From positions 124,001 to 188,000 of the forward strand of contig NZ_JAEPNI010000004.1 in the NCBI RefSeq assembly GCF_017643475.1: DNA of 64,000 nucleotides, given 5' to 3'. This stretch comes from Maricaulis sp. (GTDB lineage: Bacteria; Pseudomonadota; Alphaproteobacteria; Caulobacterales; Maricaulaceae). A program made the translations under genes and the position numbers. The notes under the pieces are model-generated. The model ran no database searches, had not been told where the DNA came from, and saw nothing but the letters and a program-made list of their open reading frames with translations. Shown piece by piece: positions 14,222 through 23,054 of the stretch; positions within the stretch are counted from its first letter, which is position 1; the number at the start of each line of letters is the position of its first letter.

Positions 14222-15562
14222 ATGTTTGACAAAATCCTGATCGCCAATCGCGGCGAAATTGCTCTTCGTGTCCACCGCGCCTGCCGCGAGATGGGCATCC
14301 GCACGGTGGCTATCCATTCCGAAGCCGATGCCGACGCGATGCATGTCCGCCTCGCTGACGAGAGCGTGTGTGTCGGCCCGCCGCCGGCCGGCAAGAGCTA
14401 TCTGAACGTTCCCGCCATTATAGCGGCGGCAGAAGTGACCGGCGCCCAGGCCATCCACCCGGGTTACGGCTTCCTGTCGGAGAACGCGCGTTTCGCCGAG
14501 ATCGTTGAAGCCCACGGCTTCACCTTCATCGGCCCGACGGCAGACCATATCCGCATCATGGGTGACAAGATCACCGCCAAGCAAACCGTCATGGACGCCG
14601 GCATCCCCGTCGTGCCCGGTTCTGAGGGCGGCGTCGCCACCTATGAAGAGGCGATCCCGATTGCCGAGAAGATCGGCTATCCGGTCCTCATCAAGGCGGC
14701 ATCGGGTGGTGGTGGCCGCGGCATGAAGGTCGCCGAGACCGCTGCGGACCTGAAAGAAGCCATGGATACCGCCTCGACCGAAGCCGCGGCGGCGTTTGGT
14801 GACGGCACGGTCTATATCGAGAAATATCTCGGTCGCCCGCGCCATATCGAGATCCAGATCCTGGCTGACACGCATGGCAATGTTGTGCACCTGGGCGAGC
14901 GCGATTGTTCGCTGCAGCGTCGCCACCAGAAAATCCTCGAGGAAGCTCCCTCACCGGCACTGAACGCGGAAGATCGCGCCAAGATCGGTGAAACCGTGTC
15001 CAAGGCCATCGGTGCCATCGGTTATCGCGGTGTGGGCACGATCGAATTCCTGTGGGAAGACGGCGAATTCTATTTCATCGAGATGAATACCCGCCTGCAG
15101 GTGGAACATCCGGTCACCGAAATGATCACCGGTATCGACCTGGTGCGCGAACAGATCCGCGTTGCTGACGGTGCGCCGCTGGAGATCACCCAGGAGGACA
15201 TCAAGTTCCGAGGCTGGGCGATCGAATGCCGGATCAATGCCGAGAACCCGAAAACCTTTGCGCCGTCTCCGGGCAAGGTCACGGATTTCCATGCACCAGG
15301 TGGTCTGGGCGTGCGCCTAGATAGTGCCCTCTATGCCGGCTACTCCATTCCGCCCTATTATGACAGCCTGATCGGCAAGCTGATCGTCCATGGCCGTACC
15401 CGCGAAGAAGCTCTGCTGCGCCTTCGCCGGTCGCTGGAGGAAATGGTTGTCGGCGGTGTTGAAACCACGACCCCGCTCTTCCTGGACCTGCTTGAAGAGG
15501 CCGAATTTGTGAATGGCGACTACCATATCCGCTGGCTGGAAGACTGGCTGGCTGACCGCTAG
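14222..15562 (+). CDS. accC: Acetyl-CoA carboxylase, biotin carboxylase subunit
   Basis: ATP-dependent carboxylation of the biotin on AccB. The 446-residue protein has the usual biotin carboxylase layout: N-terminal pre-ATP-grasp domain ([17 protein letters not shown]), central ATP-grasp with the glycine-rich loop [10 protein letters not shown] (about 160-169) and [12 protein letters not shown], the [16 protein letters not shown] catalytic segment, and the C-terminal domain with IECRINAE. Full length. Second gene of accBC. Confidence 0.97.
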
Positions 15563-15583
15563 GCAAACGCCGGAAAGGATGCG

Positions 15584-16234
15584 ATGCGGGTCTTCGGCAC
15601 AGCCGAACTGCTCGACTGTTATGCGCGCGGTGTCTTCCCAATGGCGGACTCGCGCGATGACCCGCGCATCTATTTGCTTGATCCCGATGAACGCGGCGTG
15701 CTGCCCCTCAACGGGCTGCACGTCTCCAAGCGTTTAAAGCGCAAGGTCAAACAGCAACCCTATCGCATCACTTTCGACACGGCGTTCCAGCGCGTCGTCG
15801 AAGCCTGCGCGACACCTGCGCCCGGGCGCGAGGAAACCTGGATCAATGACGGGATATTTGGCCTGTACTCAGAACTGAGACGGGATGGTTACGCCCATTC
15901 GGTCGAGGCCTGGCAGGATGATGAGCTGGTGGGCGGGCTTTATGGCGTTTCCCTCGGCCGCGCCTTTTTCGGCGAGAGCATGTTCAGCCGGGCAACTGAC
16001 GCTTCAAAGATCGCCCTGGTCTACCTTGTCGCGCGCCTGAGAGCGGGTGGCTACACCCTGCTGGACACACAATTCACGACTGAGCACCTGGAAACGCTGG
16101 GCGTGGTCACGATTACCCGCGAGCAGTATCACGAGCGACTGACCGAAGCGCTGGAAGGTGTGGGAGATTTCTACTCGATGCCCGCAGATACGTCGGCATC
16201 CGACGTTCTGCAATCAAGCACCCAGACATCATAA
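15584..16234 (+). CDS. aat: Leucyl/phenylalanyl-tRNA-protein transferase
   Basis: Transfers Leu or Phe from tRNA to N-terminal Arg/Lys of proteins, making N-end-rule substrates for ClpS/ClpAP. The 216-residue sequence has the family features GVFPMADSRDDP, an SRRxxR-like basic patch (SKRLKRKVK), WINDGIFGLYSELRRDGYAHSVEAW, GGLYGVSLGRAFFGESMFS and a C-terminal LLDTQFTTEHLETLG. AAAGGA just upstream supports the start. It is 21 bp after accC and its last 64 nt overlap the convergent DUF2155 gene. Confidence 0.94.
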   Translation: MRVFGTAELLDCYARGVFPMADSRDDPRIYLLDPDERGVLPLNGLHVSKRLKRKVKQQPYRITFDTAFQRVVEACATPAPGREETWINDGIFGLYSELRRDGYAHSVEAWQDDELVGGLYGVSLGRAFFGESMFSRATDASKIALVYLVARLRAGGYTLLDTQFTTEHLETLGVVTITREQYHERLTEALEGVGDFYSMPADTSASDVLQSSTQTS

Positions 16235-16677
16235 ACCGGGTGTTCCAGCGGGTTCTGTGCCGGGCGTGAGCCAAACATCCAGCCGGAGAAGATGGTCTCA
16301 CCTTCCGTATCCACTCCAAAACCGTCCGTGCGGCGATCCTGGATCTGGAGGAAAGCGTAGGTTTCCGGCGTTTCTTCCGGCGGGCGGCGGCGGCAATATT
16401 GCGCCGTCACAATGAGCGCGCCGAATTCATAGCTCTCACCGATAGCAATCTCGAAATCACGCGTGCGCGCCGTCACCTTGTCGAGACCACGCAAAACGAC
16501 AACGTCACCTGGCTCGCTGGACAGCTCGTAATCGCCCAGAAGGCGCGGGTCGATCTGTTCCGCTTCCGGATCAACCGCGTTGGGATCATCCGCCCGCAGC
16601 AGGTCTGCAGGATCTTGTGCCAACGAAACTGAAGATAACAGCGAGGCGGCGAGAATTCCGGTCGAAAAACGCATCAT
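16171..16677 (-). CDS. DUF2155 domain-containing secreted protein
   Basis: A 168-residue protein with a cleavable signal peptide (MMRFSTGILAASLLSSVSLAQ) and the alphaproteobacterial DUF2155 domain in the C-terminal half: VVLRGLDKVTARTRDF, YCRRRPPEETPETYAFLQI, GWMFGSRPAQNPLEHPVYDVWVLDC. Two cysteines (in YCRR and LDC) could form a disulfide. The function of DUF2155 is unknown; it is often next to aat, as here. The second Met is an alternative start. It overlaps the 3' end of aat by 64 nt. Confidence 0.88.
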   Translation of the reverse strand: MMRFSTGILAASLLSSVSLAQDPADLLRADDPNAVDPEAEQIDPRLLGDYELSSEPGDVVVLRGLDKVTARTRDFEIAIGESYEFGALIVTAQYCRRRPPEETPETYAFLQIQDRRTDGFGVDTEGETIFSGWMFGSRPAQNPLEHPVYDVWVLDCRTSDADVSAGIE

Positions 16678-16739
16678 GACACCAAGCTGTCCAGTGATTG
16701 TGGCGCTGTCGAGGCCTTACGCCTCACAGGCGATCCGGA

Positions 16740-17144
16740 TTATTCCGGCTTCCAGGCCTCGTAATCGCCAGAAGCAGTCTGGCGGTCTTCTGCGCGGGCA
16801 AGCGAGCCTGACGGGCGATAGGCGTGAACCGTTCCGGTCAGATTGGGATGGTGGTCTTTTTCCCAGTCCTGGCGCTTGAGCGGCGCTTCGGTCGGCGGAT
16901 GTTCAAACGTGTGATGCATCCAGCCATGCCAGTCGGACGGCACGCGAGAGGCGTCGGCGTAACCGTTATAGATGACCCAGCGGCGCTTGTTGCCATCGGG
17001 ACCGGTGACGCCCTTTTCCTCGTAATACTTGTTGCCGAACTCGTCCTTGCCCACCAGCTTGCCGCCGCGCGAGGAGATGGTCAGCAGCGTTCCGGGTGTG
17101 GCGTCTTTCCACCAGACGAAGATCTTGGAGATAAATCCGAGCAT
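16740..17144 (-). CDS. NADH:ubiquinone oxidoreductase NDUFA12-type accessory subunit
   Basis: A 134-residue homologue of the mitochondrial complex I accessory subunit B17.2/NDUFA12, present in alphaproteobacterial complex I. Recognisable segments are the early GNKYYEEK, RRWVIYNG, VPSDWHGWMHH and the C-terminal KDHHPNLTGT. In this family the protein binds the peripheral arm near its junction with the membrane arm. I chose the ATG at 17144 with GGAG about 7 nt upstream. It lies 62 bp downstream of no same-strand gene and is divergent from the NrdJ-like gene. Confidence 0.9.
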   Translation of the reverse strand: MLGFISKIFVWWKDATPGTLLTISSRGGKLVGKDEFGNKYYEEKGVTGPDGNKRRWVIYNGYADASRVPSDWHGWMHHTFEHPPTEAPLKRQDWEKDHHPNLTGTVHAYRPSGSLARAEDRQTASGDYEAWKPE

Positions 17145-17233
17145 TGGGTGGCTCCGAGTCGGTCGTAACAATCTGCCCGTATATGCCCTTCCCGCGCCTC
17201 CGGGTCCAGTCTTCTTAACCGCAGGCTTCAGAC

Positions 17234-17276
17234 GACTCACCGGGCTTGTTAGAGTCGAGCGATTCCCGACCGATTC
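17234..17276. promoter_or_regulatory. Cluster of four GANTC sites (candidate CcrM methylation sites)
   Basis: GACTC at 17234, GAGTC at 17252, GATTC at 17261 and GATTC at 17272 fall within 43 bp, 21-63 bp upstream of the NrdJ-like start. GANTC is the target of the cell-cycle methyltransferase CcrM in alphaproteobacteria, and such sites near promoters mediate GcrA/CcrM-dependent timing in Caulobacter. The last two sites also lie in a small palindrome (TCCCGA-CCGAT-TCGGGA). Regulation here is inferred only. Confidence 0.55.
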
Positions 17277-17296
17277 GGGAGCGTGAGGGTGGTCAC

Positions 17297-20257
17297 ATGA
17301 AGATGCTGGAAAGCTTTAAGGAATGGCTGAAGTCAGCCCCTGAAGCCGCAAAAATCGAAGCGCGTGAAATCGCACTGGATTTCGATCCGGACAGCGACGT
17401 CCCCTCACCGGTCCGCAGCATGCGCCTGCCCAAGGGTTGGAACGAGGCCGCGGCCCGCGCCCTTTCCGACCTGCTCGACACACCACGACCGACCCGCACC
17501 CGGACCAAACCGGGCCTGAAAGCCTATGCCGGCCTGGTCGCACAGATCCCGGCAGGCAAGGAACGCGAAGTCGAAAACAGTATCGAACCCGCGATCGACC
17601 GCCTGTCCGGCTCGCTGACCTGGGCAGTCGCCCGGGCCGGTCTGATCGAAGACACCGAAGACGCAAACCGGCTACGTGACACACTCGCCTTGAGCATGCT
17701 GGGTCGTTTCGTCGTGCCAGAAGCCGATCTCTGGCGTCATGGGGGCGCTGACTGGGCTTATGGGGACGCGATCCCGTCATCCACACCCGCACGCCGAACA
17801 GACCGCTTCTCTGCCAGCGCCGAGGACGCGCCGGAACGCCTGCGCCAGGTCGCTCAAAAGGAACTCCGCTCGAGCGTGCTCGATGTCGGCGCACGCGTGA
17901 TGAAGGATCGCCTCAGCGCAATCGGCGAAGCCTGCCGGCGCTGTTCCGGCGAGGCAGAGCGTTTCGATCCACGCCAGAACGCAGCACTCGCCCGTGCCAT
18001 GCGACAGGCCTTGCGCGACGGTGTCCCTGAAGAAGCCGTTGAACGGGCCCTGGCCCTCGCGCAACAGGGCGCCGACGACGATACGCTCGCAGGCCTGGCG
18101 CCAGAGATGGAAACGCCAGCTGCCTGTGTTCTCGAAGTCGCGCCGGGTCTTCTCGAAGCGCTCGAGGCCGACAGCGCCTGGAGCTTTGGGCCAAAGGGCG
18201 GAAGCGTGCGTGCCCGCGGCTTCCGCAACACGATCGCCCGCTCCATCTGGAGTTTTGGTGCACCACAGCTCAGCTTCCATGAAAGCCCGACCGAAACTGG
18301 CGCCGTCGTCTATCTGAACCTGCCAGCCTTCCTGGACGCGTCCGGACTGCGCACGGATTTGCTCTCAGACACCGTTTTTGCTTGGACAACCGCGCTTAGC
18401 GTCAGCGCACCCAAGGACGAACCGGTTGCGGGAACATTTTCACTGAGCGGCATGGCCGCCGTGCTCATGTCCTGCGGCATTGCCTACGACAGCGAAATTG
18501 GTCGCAAGACGGCCGCAGCCATTACCCGGCTGATTACTGGATACATGCGCCAGGCCTGTGCACAGACCGGTGCCATGGCCCCGGCGCTGGGCGCAGACAT
18601 CGAATTTGACGCTGGCGAGCTGCCACAAGCCCTGCAGACGCTGGCGGACGGACTGCGCGAGCTGCCGGCCCGGTTTGAAGCGAAAGGTGCCCTGTCACGC
18701 CCTGGCGTGCTGCTGTCGGCGCTGCCTGTGCCTGCAGACGTCGCACCGCTGATCGAAGCCGACGCACTGGGCGCAAGCCATGTCATCAATTCCATCACCA
18801 CGGATATGGGCGAAACTGGTGGCAGCACGCTGCGGGACAGTGCACGCAATGGCCTGAAAGCGCTGGGTCTCAATGCCAGCCAGATCGAGAAGGCCGAGGA
18901 CCACGCCGCCGGACACGGTACATTCAAGGGCGCTCCCGGGATTTCCTTTGAGGATCTGATGCTCAAGGGCGTGCCGATCGAGGCGCTTGAGCGCATGGAT
19001 GACAGTATTGGCGAAGGCGCGTCCATCCGCTTCGCCTTCAACCGCTGGACGCTGGGAGACCGGGTGTGCCGGGACATTCTGCGCCTGCCACACGATGTCG
19101 TCGCGGAACAGGGTCAGTCCCTGTGCGCAGCCGCTGGTTACTCCGACAGCGATGTTGCCATCGCGGATCGTTACGCCCACGGCTCCGGCCAGCTGGACGA
19201 CGCACCGTCACTCAGCCCGGAACAGCGACGTGTATTCGAACAACCGTCCAACCGCGCCCAGCTGGCGATGGCCGCTGCGCTGGAAAGCCAGATGTCCGGC
19301 GTCTGCGACACACGCCTGGCGCTCGACGCCGCAGCAACCATCGACGATGTCGCAGAACTCTTTGATCTTGCTATGAAAGTCGGGCTGCGCCAGGTCGCGA
19401 TGCGCCGCACGGGTTCCGGCCTGTTTGACATGTTGCCGGCGATCGATTTCGACAAGGGCGACTACACCGCCGAGCCCCAGAAAGAGCGCATCATCGAGCG
19501 CACCGTCGAGGTCGAACGTGTCGTCGAAAAACCCGCAGCGCGCCGCAAGCTGCCCGATCGTCGCAAGGGTTATATCCAGAAAGCTACCGTGGGCGGCCAC
19601 AAGGTCTATCTGCATACCGGCGAGTTTGATGACGGCGAGCTGGGCGAGATCTTCATCGACATGCACAAGGAAGGCGCCGCCTTCCGCTCGCTGATGAATA
19701 ATTTCGCCATCGCGATTTCCATCGGATTGCAATACGGCGTGCCGCTGGAAGAATATGTCGACGCCTTCGTCTTCACGCGCTTCGAGCCGGCCGGGCCCGT
19801 TGAGGGCAATGATTCCATTCAACAGGCGACGTCCATTCTGGACTACCTCTTCCGCGAACTCGGCGTGTCCTATCTCGGGCGGGACGATCTGGCGGAAATT
19901 TCACCGGACAAGGCCGATCCGGGTGGTCTGGGCCAGGGAGTGGAGCAGGAGAAACTCCTGCAGGAAGACGCGGCCCGCTTCATATCGCGCGGTTTCTCGC
20001 GAGGCCAGGTGCCCGACAATATCCTGATGTTCGCTGGTGCCGCGAAGAAAGCGGCCAACGCCAATGATGGCGACGAGATCGTCCAGGAAGAAATTGTCGA
20101 GATCGAGCACGCCTCTGCCAGCAGTACCGTAGCGACAACCAGCCCGGTCAGTGAAGTCAGCGCCTATCTGGGCGACCCCTGCCCGGAATGTGGTCATTTC
20201 ACCCTGGTCAGCGAAGGTAATGGCTCCCGCTGTGACGCGTGCAACTGGTCCGGCTGA
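17297..20257 (+). CDS. Degenerate class II ribonucleotide reductase (NrdJ)-like, TSCPD-domain protein
   Basis: A 986-residue protein. Residues 750-870 read like the C-terminal part of B12-dependent Nrd[57 protein letters not shown] and [12 protein letters not shown]. The end keeps the zinc ribbon CPECGHFTL...CDAC (962-982). Residues 585-715 look like the stretch before it in NrdJ but drifted: [13 protein letters not shown] for the VCG-MTLEGAPHL region, [13 protein letters not shown] for RMMAAAQPFISG. In NrdJ the segment NPCSE...CNLASLNL carries active-site residues; here the matching stretch (325-342) is [17 protein letters not shown] with no cysteine. The first 300 residues are not recognisable. 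So it probably does not reduce ribonucleotides; a regulatory or structural role is inference. ATG 17297 follows GAGG by 8 nt. Confidence 0.8.
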
Positions 20258-20310
20258 AAACCGGCGCAAGGCTTGCACTGACAGGGAAAGTCCAAGCGGA
20301 GCGGCCCACA

Positions 20311-20796
20311 ATGACACGGTTTATCGCAGCTATTTTCATGACCCTGTTCGGTCTTAGCCCGGCATTGGCGCAGAATGCCGGCGAGATCGCCCGTGTCCAG
20401 GCTGGGCAAAGCTGCGCGGGCTGTAATCTCTTCCAGGCCGACCTCGCCTATCGCGACCTGCCCGGCGTCAATCTCGCCGGTTCGCGTCTGCGCCAGGCCG
20501 ATCTCTCGCTGGCAACAATGAACCGGGCGGATTTCAATGGTGCCAACATGAGTGTCTCCAATCTGTTCGGCGCTCGGTTTACCAGAGCGAATTTCCGCAA
20601 TACCAATCTTCAGCACGCTGTGCTGGTCGGCGCCTATCTCGGCGGGGCGGACCTGCGCGGTGCTGACCTGACGGGTGCCAATCTTTCCGGTGCCGATCTG
20701 CAAACCGCAGGCGGCCTGACCCAAGCCCAGCTGAATACGGCCTGCGGTGACAGCAGCACACGACTGCCCGCCGGCTTGAACATCGCGAACTGCTAG
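20311..20796 (+). CDS. Secreted pentapeptide-repeat protein
   Basis: A 161-residue exported protein. The signal peptide (MTRFIAAIFMTLFGLSPALA) is followed by an N-terminal cap with SCAGCNLFQADL and about 15 tandem A(D/N)LxX pentapeptides (about 40-135), which fold as a right-handed quadrilateral beta-helix. A C-terminal cap GLTQAQLNTACGD...LPAGLNIANC follows. The function is unknown; the fold is used for protein binding. The larger paralogue directly downstream shares both caps. It starts 53 bp after the NrdJ-like gene and may be in the same transcript. The ATG at 20311 is chosen because it begins the signal peptide; an upstream in-frame ATG at 20239 lies inside the preceding gene. Confidence 0.85.
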   Translation: MTRFIAAIFMTLFGLSPALAQNAGEIARVQAGQSCAGCNLFQADLAYRDLPGVNLAGSRLRQADLSLATMNRADFNGANMSVSNLFGARFTRANFRNTNLQHAVLVGAYLGGADLRGADLTGANLSGADLQTAGGLTQAQLNTACGDSSTRLPAGLNIANC

Positions 20797-20866
20797 TTGT
20801 ATTCTAATACCCGATATTACTGGCTTTTAAGTCGATTTCGGGTGTCACCTGACCTATCCGGTTAGT

Positions 20867-22291
20867 ATGAAGTCATTGCATTTGTTCAGCGCCCTGCTTC
20901 TGGGCGGCAGCATTCTGGCCGCTTCGCCTGCTCTGGCAGGTGAAAACGATCAGCCACGCCGCGGCCTGGCGATCGGCGGTGAATGCGAGGACTGCGACTT
21001 CTCCGACAAGAACCTGTCCGGCGCGACCTTCATCGGCGCGGAGTTTTCGGGATCCAGTTTCCGCAATTCCGAGCTGGTCGGTTCCAACTTCATGGAATCG
21101 CGCTTCGCACAGACCGATTTCGCGCATGCAGACCTCGACGAGGCCCAGCTTCGCGGCGTGACTTTCCTCAATTCCGACCTGTCACATGTCGACCTGCGCA
21201 ATGCGCGAGTCGAACGCGTGAACTTCTCGGATACCGATCTGACCCGGACCAATTTTTCCGAGGGCGAGCTGGTTTTCGTGACATTTGTCGGCAGTGAGCT
21301 GATCAATACACGTTTCATAGATACCGAGCTGCAGCAGGTGAATTTCCTGCGCGCCAATCTCAATGGAACCGTCTTTCGCGACGCCCAGCTCCGCGATGCC
21401 AATTTCAGCCATGTAGTTGGTGAACGCATCGACTTTCGCGATGCTGACCTCACGGATGTGAGTTTCGAAGGTGCTGTTCTGCATGAGGTCGACTTCCGCG
21501 AGGCGGAACTGTCGGGCGTCGATTTTTCCTCGGCTGTGATTGTTGACCCGCAGGGTCTCACCAAGAGTGCTCTGGCCGGTGCCTGTGGTAACGAAGAAAC
21601 CCAGATTGGCCGCGGCGTCGCCCTGCCTCCGTGTCACTCGGAGGCCCGCAGCAATGTCGGCTATTCCTACGACTTCCGTGTGCTGTCCCGCGAAGGACGT
21701 GATGAAACCGAGGCGCTGCTGCAGGAGCTTGAGGCGGTCGGCGGGATCCGTGTGGAACTGCTGCACCAACTGGGCACTATTGCCGAGGACCGGGCCCAGC
21801 AGGTCGAACGTCAGCAAGTACAACGCGCCCTTCGTGCCGCCATGCGTGACCTGGCCCATCGCGAACGCGAGATTGATCGCGCCATCCGCGAAGCCGAACG
21901 CAATGGCGGTGATGTCAGCCGCGAACTACGCGATGAACAGCGCGAACTTTCGCGCGCCCAGCGCGAGACAGTGCGGGCGTTTGACGAAATGGAACGCGAC
22001 ATCGCCGACGCGCAGCGTGACCGCATCGAGGTCCGTCGCGAGGCTCTGGAACATCAGCGTGCCTTCGCGCTGGAAATGAGCAACCAGATCATGCGCCAGG
22101 GCAGGATCGTGATCCCTGACGGCCATGATGGTGACTATGTCTTCGTAATGCCCGGGCCATTTCCACCGACCGCGCTGGAAATCATCGAAGATATCCCGGA
22201 ACTGGAAGGTGGCCGCGACCAGGAGTTCGAATTTGAATTCGAAACCCCGGAACAGCCTGATGCGCCAGAAGTCGAGCTCGACGAAAACTAG
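20867..22291 (+). CDS. Secreted pentapeptide-repeat protein with coiled-coil tail
   Basis: A 474-residue exported protein. After a signal peptide (about 1-25, ending SPALAG) there is the cap GGECEDCDFSDKNL, then about 35 pentapeptide units (about 40-225) with frequent Phe at the central position (V.F.D..L), and the C-terminal cap GLTKSALAGACGN...LPPC. Residues about 270-405 are long, very charged helices rich in Arg, Glu and Gln (RALRAAMRDLAHREREID and similar), predicted coiled coil. The last 50 residues are Pro-rich and acidic. It is paralogous to the preceding gene over the repeat part, and the coiled coil is an addition. A terminator follows. Confidence 0.85.
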   Translation: MKSLHLFSALLLGGSILAASPALAGENDQPRRGLAIGGECEDCDFSDKNLSGATFIGAEFSGSSFRNSELVGSNFMESRFAQTDFAHADLDEAQLRGVTFLNSDLSHVDLRNARVERVNFSDTDLTRTNFSEGELVFVTFVGSELINTRFIDTELQQVNFLRANLNGTVFRDAQLRDANFSHVVGERIDFRDADLTDVSFEGAVLHEVDFREAELSGVDFSSAVIVDPQGLTKSALAGACGNEETQIGRGVALPPCHSEARSNVGYSYDFRVLSREGRDETEALLQELEAVGGIRVELLHQLGTIAEDRAQQVERQQVQRALRAAMRDLAHREREIDRAIREAERNGGDVSRELRDEQRELSRAQRETVRAFDEMERDIADAQRDRIEVRREALEHQRAFALEMSNQIMRQGRIVIPDGHDGDYVFVMPGPFPPTALEIIEDIPELEGGRDQEFEFEFETPEQPDAPEVELDEN

Positions 22292-22326
22292 AAAAAAGGG
22301 CCACTCATCGAGCGGCCCTTCTCTTT
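22292..22326 (+). terminator. Intrinsic terminator after pentapeptide genes
   Basis: AAGGGCC (22296-22302) and GGCCCTT (22314-22320) form a 7 bp stem with an 11 nt loop, followed by TCTCTTTG. It is placed 5 bp after the stop of the coiled-coil pentapeptide gene. Confidence 0.85.
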
Positions 22327-22383
22327 GTATCGATACGAAGTAGGGAAAGCTGCCCCCTCTTCATATCCGTTTGCAGTTTCCAA

Positions 22384-22710
22384 TCAGGAAACTTCACAAG
22401 ACTTGGCGTCATAGATGTCCATCAGGTGCTCGTGACGCTCTTGAGCAAGGTCCATCGCCCGGTCAGCTTCCATGTAGTTTCCAACAGCTGCAGGCCAGAA
22501 GAATACAACAGCAGCCACGTTAGCCGTATTGACGCCCTGATTGTTCTCGGCTTCTTCCTGGATATCGTCCAGAGCATGCATTTCTTCCTCAAGCTGCGCA
22601 CAGCTCATGCTCTGGTCGCCCGGCTGGCGTACGTCGACTTTCGGAGTGGACGTACAGGCCGTAGCGAACAACGCTGCCACAGAGACAGCGAGGATAGCTT
22701 TGATTTTCAT
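22384..22710 (-). CDS. Small hypothetical lipoprotein
   Basis: A 108-residue putative lipoprotein: hydrophobic N terminus with lipobox FATAC (Cys at about residue 19), followed by SMSCAQLEEEMHALDD, a short hydrophobic stretch (NVAAVVFFWPAAVG) and a helical, charged C terminus ending in a Cys-containing tail (KSCEVS). A pattern of C.....L..E...L..I with a later hydrophobic VVFFWPA segment recurs in many small alphaproteobacterial lipoproteins of unknown function. ATG 22710 is preceded by GGGGGA. Convergent with the pentapeptide genes. Confidence 0.75.
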   Translation of the reverse strand: MKIKAILAVSVAALFATACTSTPKVDVRQPGDQSMSCAQLEEEMHALDDIQEEAENNQGVNTANVAAVVFFWPAAVGNYMEADRAMDLAQERHEHLMDIYDAKSCEVS

Positions 22711-23054
22711 TGGGTCCCCCATGATGCAAAAAAACAATTCCTGATTGACCTATATGAAGCCTCTTTGCAACGGATTTTTCTATCCTTTTTTGAGAGACTT
22801 GCTTGGCGAAATTAACGCCACGCACGCCCCGAGGCGTGGCGTGGAAGGCGGATCGATACCGCTTATGATTGCCCACAAAGCAATGGAGACTGTTGACCAT
22901 ACTAACGACATCACCAAACAAGACCTGATCGTCACGTTCCGCCTCTGACGACACGCGGTGATTGTCGCGCCAACCAGTCCCGCCATCTCGAATCTTCGAT
23001 AAGCCAGGCAAGACGGATATCCAGCTCGTCTTCTCCTCTTGCCAGGACCGGGAA
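22711..23054. other. Intergenic region with one hairpin, no gene recognised
   Basis: A 344 bp gap between the small lipoprotein (start at 22710) and the aspS terminator. It holds CACGCC-CCGA-GGCGTG (22823-22838), a 6 bp stem with a tetraloop, embedded in the repeated ACGCC/GGCGT units. Short open frames on both strands have no recognisable features and no good ribosome binding sites. Nothing else can be supported. Confidence 0.4.

Follow-up and report, generated by a model that had tools for sequence, protein, structure and literature searches.

A probable ribonucleotide-reductase pseudoenzyme descended from class II NrdJ in Maricaulis and its relatives

Relatives of the large subunit of ribonucleotide reductase (RNR) that lack catalysis have been described in viruses. 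The betaherpesvirus vIRA proteins are catalytically inactive R1 homologues, derived from class I RNR, which act in host cell-death signalling, and these inactive viral R1 proteins are a precedent for RNR pseudoenzymes. According to excerpts of two papers on class II enzymes, the tails of these enzymes consist of an IscU-like domain and a zinc finger, the role of the IscU-like domain being given there as unreported (PMC9669993), and the C-terminal domain of Stackebrandtia NrdJ is needed for dATP/dGTP-induced oligomerisation and also for electron transfer, for which all six C-terminal cysteines are required and Cys-933/Cys-945 are the proposed redox pair (PMC5704485). The same excerpts present the split NrdJa/NrdJb form as a known arrangement (PMC5704485, PMC9669993) and NrdJb as identical to the six-cysteine CRD (PMC5704485). 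NrdR is described, in an excerpt of a further paper, as binding two 16-bp boxes with a usual spacing of 15-16 bp (PMC12051234).

The window analysed here is a stretch of 64,000 nucleotides from Maricaulis sp., and the gene of interest lies at 17297..20257 on the + strand. As the initial annotation had described, it runs from an ATG at 17297 (the preferred start, with an alternative TTG start possible at 17246) to a stop at 20255-20257 and encodes 986 aa. Its product, called pseudo-NrdJ here, is almost certainly a ribonucleotide-reductase pseudoenzyme, judging from a sequence that combines homology and a homologous fold, loss of the catalytic residues and purifying selection. It shares with alphaproteobacterial NrdJ (NF005736; 7b9p/7b9q) the locus, the order of segments, an insert, the TSCPD domain and the zinc ribbon, but a portion of the barrel, all of the catalytic residues and the redox cysteine pair of that enzyme are gone. 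It resembles NrdJb of the split class II RNR of Pseudomonas in having a TSCPD domain, described elsewhere as IscU-like, and a zinc finger with no catalytic site on the chain; however, NrdJb works with NrdJa, whereas pseudo-NrdJ keeps a residual NrdJ body, has no redox cysteines and comes from a genome in which no NrdJa was found. Like vIRA it would be a relative of an RNR large subunit with a role other than catalysis, although vIRA is class I derived and viral. The NrdR repressor also has a zinc ribbon, and has dNTP-linked oligomerisation in RNR control, but it carries an ATP-cone and binds DNA, while pseudo-NrdJ gave no Pfam match to the ATP-cone. No report of a bacterial NrdJ pseudoenzyme was found among the matches listed in the literature searched.

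All parts of pseudo-NrdJ are on the + strand. Residues 1-180 (17297..17836) are, by alignment and Pfam, what remains of the N-terminal helical domain of class II enzymes, and Ribonuc_red_2_N can still be seen in this region in 7 of 28 aligned members. Residues 181-265 (17837..18091) form a helical insert common to alphaproteobacterial NrdJ, strongly conserved and weakly YebC_N-like. Just upstream of this insert is a deletion of about 100 residues net relative to true NrdJ, in the first half of the barrel; the deleted part in true NrdJ holds HACFIQ, SGSGTNFSNLR and the loops after them. The remaining barrel part, residues 266-715 (18092..19441), is without the NPCSE loop and the redox cysteines. 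A linker follows at residues 716-751 (19442..19549; pLDDT <50 in the model described below), then a TSCPD domain much like that of true NrdJ at residues 752-868 (19550..19900), a variable tail at residues 869-955 (19901..20161; pLDDT mostly <50), and a zinc ribbon at residues 956-986 (20162..20254) with C962, C965, C979 and C982 and without the redox cysteine pair of NrdJ.

Profile searches and structure comparison place the whole protein in the NrdJ family. Pseudo-NrdJ is homologous along its whole length to the ~1220-residue alphaproteobacterial B12-dependent NrdJ, and its best NCBIfam match is NF005736 (B12-dependent RNR, 1222 positions), with 477 bits and an E-value of 8.6e-143 over four stretches; the curated cut-off is 1737 bits, and the true NrdJ of related genomes score 1883-1975 (n=3). 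Residues 580-870, where the initial annotation expected a match to NrdJ, do have a significant one, the best stretch to NF005736 being 515-983. Pfam finds TSCPD (PF12637) at residues 761-855 (E 1.6e-11), as it does in 28/28 aligned members, but the barrel family PF02867 scores 13.4 bits, below its cut-off of 23.9, so the protein does not count as having a complete catalytic barrel. Among solved structures, R. sphaeroides NrdJ (7b9q/7b9p) alone was matched at E<=1, over four stretches that keep the same order. An AlphaFold2 model was built from the Maricaulis protein and 27 relatives (mean pLDDT 76), and its top Foldseek hits were again R. sphaeroides NrdJ (7b9p, E 1.8e-27), with a loose superposition (TM ~0.5, rmsd 10.6 A). 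The tail domain alone gave no Foldseek hit at E<=0.001; IscU entries were among those listed at E 0.24 or worse. As judged from these matches, pseudo-NrdJ is a descendant of the whole of NrdJ, not an NrdJ tail fused to something else.

The loss of catalysis was examined in 82 short homologues from four family codes, the Maricaulis protein among them, aligned against 12 full-length NrdJ. Left out of this set were L032 (the same gene as L065), the partial L033 and L073, L166, and L174, whose frame is extended upstream and which has a four-cysteine ribbon at its end; L146 duplicates L044, so the 82 aligned rows represent 81 genomes. The five catalytic positions (two redox cysteines, the asparagine, the radical cysteine and the glutamate) were matched in 0/82 short homologues, while full-length NrdJ has the catalytic cysteines and the glutamate in 12/12 and the asparagine in 11/12. 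The C-terminal redox cysteine pair is missing in 82/82 short homologues and kept in 12/12 full-length NrdJ; the four zinc cysteines are all kept in 82/82 short homologues and likewise in 12/12 full-length NrdJ. In the alignment of the Maricaulis protein with true NrdJ, the first redox cysteine and NPCSE fall in gaps and the second redox cysteine is replaced: CNLASLNL aligns with VYLNLPAF, and YLNLPAF is what remains of the second redox segment at its end. This agrees with the initial annotation, which had seen a dead-looking core with no cysteine in the NPCSE/CNLASLNL stretch, since no catalytic Cys, Asn or Glu stands at an aligned position. The same annotation had called the C-terminal domain intact, which holds for the fold and the four-cysteine zinc site but fails for the two redox cysteines, the true NrdJ of relatives ending in six cysteines (CPDC..NGTC.KCD.C..TGCS) versus four here (CPEC...CDAC). 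Because these redox cysteines are gone, the tail domain should not do electron transfer as it does in NrdJ. By these alignments neither catalysis nor its reduction chain is left and the zinc site is kept, and because 82/82 short homologues share the same losses, this is not one decayed gene.

The distribution of the two forms was judged by frame length, with part of the sequences inspected, in the Maricaulis genome and 100 relatives. An NrdJ-type match was found in 94 of these 101 genomes. Sixty carry the short form, one has a short contig-end fragment, 32 have full-length or fragmentary true forms, and eight have neither, namely the seven without a match and G019, with a match of just 2.5e-5. 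PF02867 is present in 101/101 genomes and PF00268 (NrdB) in 100/101; by our reading of the rows, all 60 short-form genomes have an NrdA-sized match and an NrdB match. Going by the names in record titles, the short form is also found in Oceanicaulis, Woodsholea, Glycocaulis, Marinicauda and Alkalicaulis, and in the family taken as Caulobacteraceae a member's pseudo-NrdJ is matched in 109 of 119 genomes. Class-wide, residues 501-986 were matched in 243 of 385 sampled genomes, and among the matches listed outside the order most frames are ~1180-1364 aa and a few are shorter; pseudo-NrdJ is likely restricted to Caulobacterales. A contig filed as a Myxococcales MAG (L144) carries a fragment resembling alphaproteobacterial NrdJ and is perhaps misbinned.

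Dead and true copies share a genomic setting. Among 27 loci compared, 19/19 dead and 5/8 true copies lie within all or part of a syntenic block that we take to be accB-accC-aat-...-nrdJ (or dead nrdJ)-pentapeptide-aspS, its gene names assigned by recognition and its pentapeptide genes by matching. Because dead and true copies sit in the same block, catalysis was most simply lost in place. A tree of the C-terminal domain, made without the zinc ribbon and without the long-branched L037, fails to reject a single dead clade (p-AU 0.39), and an aspS tree, on which dead and true NrdJ interleave, rejects it (p 9e-42) and gives 5 changes; f1 and f4, two families of the database, are also divided on the aspS tree, and this gene may therefore not track the species. 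In the window, the gene is followed by two pentapeptide-repeat genes on the + strand, at 20239..20796 (the frame as listed, from a GTG start, with an exported-looking start further in, near 20299) and at 20867..22291. Upstream is a divergent neighbour at 16740..17240 on the - strand, which we take to be NDUFA12-like and which belongs to the same block. Between the divergent genes, at ~17100-17296, are blocks conserved across Maricaulis species: GGCTCCGAGTCGGT, TATATGCC, GGTCCAGT and CGATTCGG. A B12 riboswitch before the gene was considered and rejected, as an Rfam search of 15000-23000 gave one chance-level match (E 0.73).

The upstream regions were scanned for NrdR boxes at the usual 15-16 bp spacing, over 300 bases, with an NrdR consensus and dinucleotide shuffles (p<0.05). 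L028 (<150 bases upstream), L032, L033 and L146 were left out, and L157, L166 and L174 were also outside the set. Predicted tandem NrdR-like boxes were found at 29 of the 32 Caulobacteraceae-like dead loci tested (the misses being L041, L155 and L156), at 3/7 f4 loci and at 3/12 true NrdJ loci; none were found upstream of the 31 f1 copies (Maricaulis and kin) or the nine f2 copies. Since these loci are related, they do not count as independent events. When mononucleotide shuffles and spacings of 30-33 were used, boxes were seen at 30/33 Caulobacteraceae-like dead loci (L146 included), and the controls run in that version gave 20/20 for regions upstream of nrdA and 1/17 for aspS upstream segments (12 loci). 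The nrdA of the Maricaulis genus does carry NrdR-like boxes, NrdR is encoded in 7/7 genomes tested, and in most of 25 loci shown the spacer sequence varies while the boxes stay. In the Caulobacteraceae-like genomes the dead gene thus appears, from predicted operators, to belong to the RNR regulon and to be controlled by NrdR together with nrdA. Because the boxes are absent before the f1 and f2 copies, such co-regulation is confined to some lineages and may have been left over from the nrdJ promoter.

These operators bear on the idea that pseudo-NrdJ has nothing to do with dNTPs and serves in structure or sensing, for example at the envelope in concert with the exported-looking pentapeptide-repeat protein encoded next to it. 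One or two such genes adjoin 18/19 dead copies, and in some cases the pair is kept in an otherwise different neighbourhood, as was observed for nrdJ at L084 and L085. The same pair occurs with true NrdJ, however, at 7/8 of the true copies compared, the pentapeptide proteins look exported by eye and pseudo-NrdJ does not, and NrdR-type operators are predicted in the Caulobacteraceae-like genomes, so we regard a role of this kind as unlikely.

Selection was measured as dN/dS (Nei-Gojobori) in seven Maricaulis pairs, L009 being in two of them. The ratio for the whole gene, computed from dN and dS, is 0.07-0.12, a rough figure because dS is 0.8-1.3, as it is for the parts: 0.12-0.22 for residues 1-180, 0.005-0.054 for the helical insert 181-265 (six pairs, synonymous sites being saturated in the seventh), 0-0.024 for the TSCPD domain and 0.018-0.099 for the zinc ribbon. 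The lowest value among domains belongs to TSCPD or the insert in every pair, and the 36-residue linker is comparable to them in some. Estimated in this way, purifying selection is strong and acts in each region measured. The constraint on the YebC/TACO1-like helical insert (17837-18091) comes close to that on the TSCPD domain.

The insert could point to an RNA- or ribosome-linked factor, in which the YebC-like insert and the zinc ribbon bind RNA and TSCPD oligomerises. Similarity to YebC/TACO1_N (PF20772) is seen at E<=0.01 in 25/28 aligned members, and few regions are more constrained than the insert, which has the lowest dN/dS of the domains in 3/7 pairs. But in pseudo-NrdJ this similarity covers ~34 residues and reaches 20.8 bits, under the Pfam cut-off of 36, the insert was inherited from true NrdJ, and the f2 dead proteins align poorly there, which makes an RNA-linked factor decidedly improbable.

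A gene that is simply decaying, an nrdJ relic on its way out once the class I RNR took over, would explain the strongly diverged and partly deleted core, the eight of 101 genomes with neither form, the one inspected frame (L166) that ends without a ribbon, and the single stop inside the match in several Caulobacteraceae-like rows (such as G117, G105, G116 and G121); these stops may reflect local decay or an alignment running past the stop. It is contradicted by dN/dS far below 1 in the measured regions and near 0.01 for TSCPD, by the four zinc cysteines kept in 82/82, and by a full open frame with no internal stop in 18 of 19 Maricaulis-genus genomes, the 19th being cut by a contig end, and is very improbable.

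A second RNR, for which the initial annotation had proposed searching the genome, is present as nrdA and nrdB. In the Maricaulis genome PF02867 matches a single class I NrdA, in two pieces, and nothing else, and the one TSCPD gene is pseudo-NrdJ itself, which makes the proposed binding of an NrdJ partner unlikely here. Elsewhere, a different kind of class II gene, with a complete barrel, is found in 15/101 genomes; as we read the rows, 12 of these are among the 60 short-form genomes. Fourteen of these other class II genes were inspected (L094-L107, 582-902 aa), and 11 have a six-cysteine end, with L097, L099 and L100 lacking one; that of G062 has a TSCPD match in the same frame, and the 902-aa frame of G019 (L104) has NPCSE and a six-cysteine ribbon, apparently without TSCPD between them (by eye, last 130 residues). 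A part as donor of the C-terminal domain in trans to another class II NrdJ, as NrdJb is for NrdJa, could be imagined in those 12 short-form genomes but is scarcely credible, given that both redox cysteines are gone in 82/82, that 11 of the 14 further genes have their own six-cysteine end and that the Maricaulis genome has no other class II gene. For the Maricaulis genome itself a split NrdJ was rejected on this last ground, and a role as electron donor is already refuted.

The initial annotation had proposed selection for a new, non-catalytic role, and a dead form seen family-wide (82/82) under purifying selection in each measured region upholds it: pseudo-NrdJ very probably has a selected role other than catalysis. 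With the electron-transfer cysteines gone, an assembly- or nucleotide-linked role is what can remain. Our overall reading, that the pseudoenzyme is a non-catalytic, self-associating module of dNTP metabolism that works through its TSCPD/zinc tail on a putative partner, is evenly poised, and the statement that it acts in dNTP/RNR control is tentative, at slightly below even. By sequence, an nrdJ at this locus has lost part of the barrel, the catalytic residues and the C-terminal redox pair in cells encoding class I NrdAB, while the helical insert, the TSCPD domain and the four-cysteine ribbon are retained under strong purifying selection. As such a module, the protein would assemble through TSCPD and the zinc ribbon, would bind a partner, most plausibly the class I RNR or its nucleotide supply, and may adjust the output of that partner with nucleotide level. 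The deleted barrel segments are presumably the specificity-site segments, which counts against this reading, and the eight of 101 genomes with neither form indicate that pseudo-NrdJ is dispensable.

A more specific version, in which pseudo-NrdJ is a trans-acting overall-activity regulator that senses the dNTP pool and switches NrdAB on or off, is quite unlikely. It would do so with the NrdJ tail domain, whose oligomerisation answers to dATP and dGTP in the Stackebrandtia enzyme. In the Maricaulis genome (L311) neither NrdA of class I (647 aa) nor NrdB (344 aa) shows an ATP-cone in Pfam at E<=0.01, while the NrdR of this genome has one. With no overall-activity site recognised in its class I RNR, there is scope for control in trans, and since dead and true NrdJ interleave on the aspS tree, though one dead clade is not rejected on the tail-domain tree, a trans regulator could have evolved repeatedly, with C. 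crescentus as one instance, its annotated NrdJ then being the regulator. The lack of such operators in Maricaulis and the eight of 101 genomes with neither form speak against it.

If the module reading is right, bacteria would offer an example of an RNR that was retained although its catalysis had been lost. Pseudo-NrdJ would then isolate the little-understood TSCPD domain of class II RNR from catalytic turnover, and the role of that domain would be directly testable in a genetically tractable model organism. In C. crescentus, CCNA_01966 is given as NrdJ in an excerpt of one paper (PMC6538847) and called a vitamin B12-dependent ribonucleotide reductase in an excerpt of another (PMC5869019). 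The C. vibrioides control genome has a TSCPD match but no protein that reaches the cut-off for full NrdJ (a match below this cut-off to the NrdJ model is seen for E. coli too, presumably via NrdA), and in four genomes of the genus code taken as Caulobacter the short gene is present and the other PF02867 matches are two NrdA pieces. From these related genomes, the C. crescentus 'NrdJ' CCNA_01966 is probably the dead form. A gene annotated as a B12-dependent RNR, at least in C. crescentus, would then not be one in that species or across a large part of Caulobacterales, and any account of dNTP synthesis or B12 use that includes a CCNA_01966-type gene would have to be corrected.

NrdJ tail domains also occur on contigs from a virus collection (L252-L290, n=39), partly as separate short proteins. 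By eye, 37/39 of these show extra redox-type cysteines, L279 and L287 being without the end of the domain.
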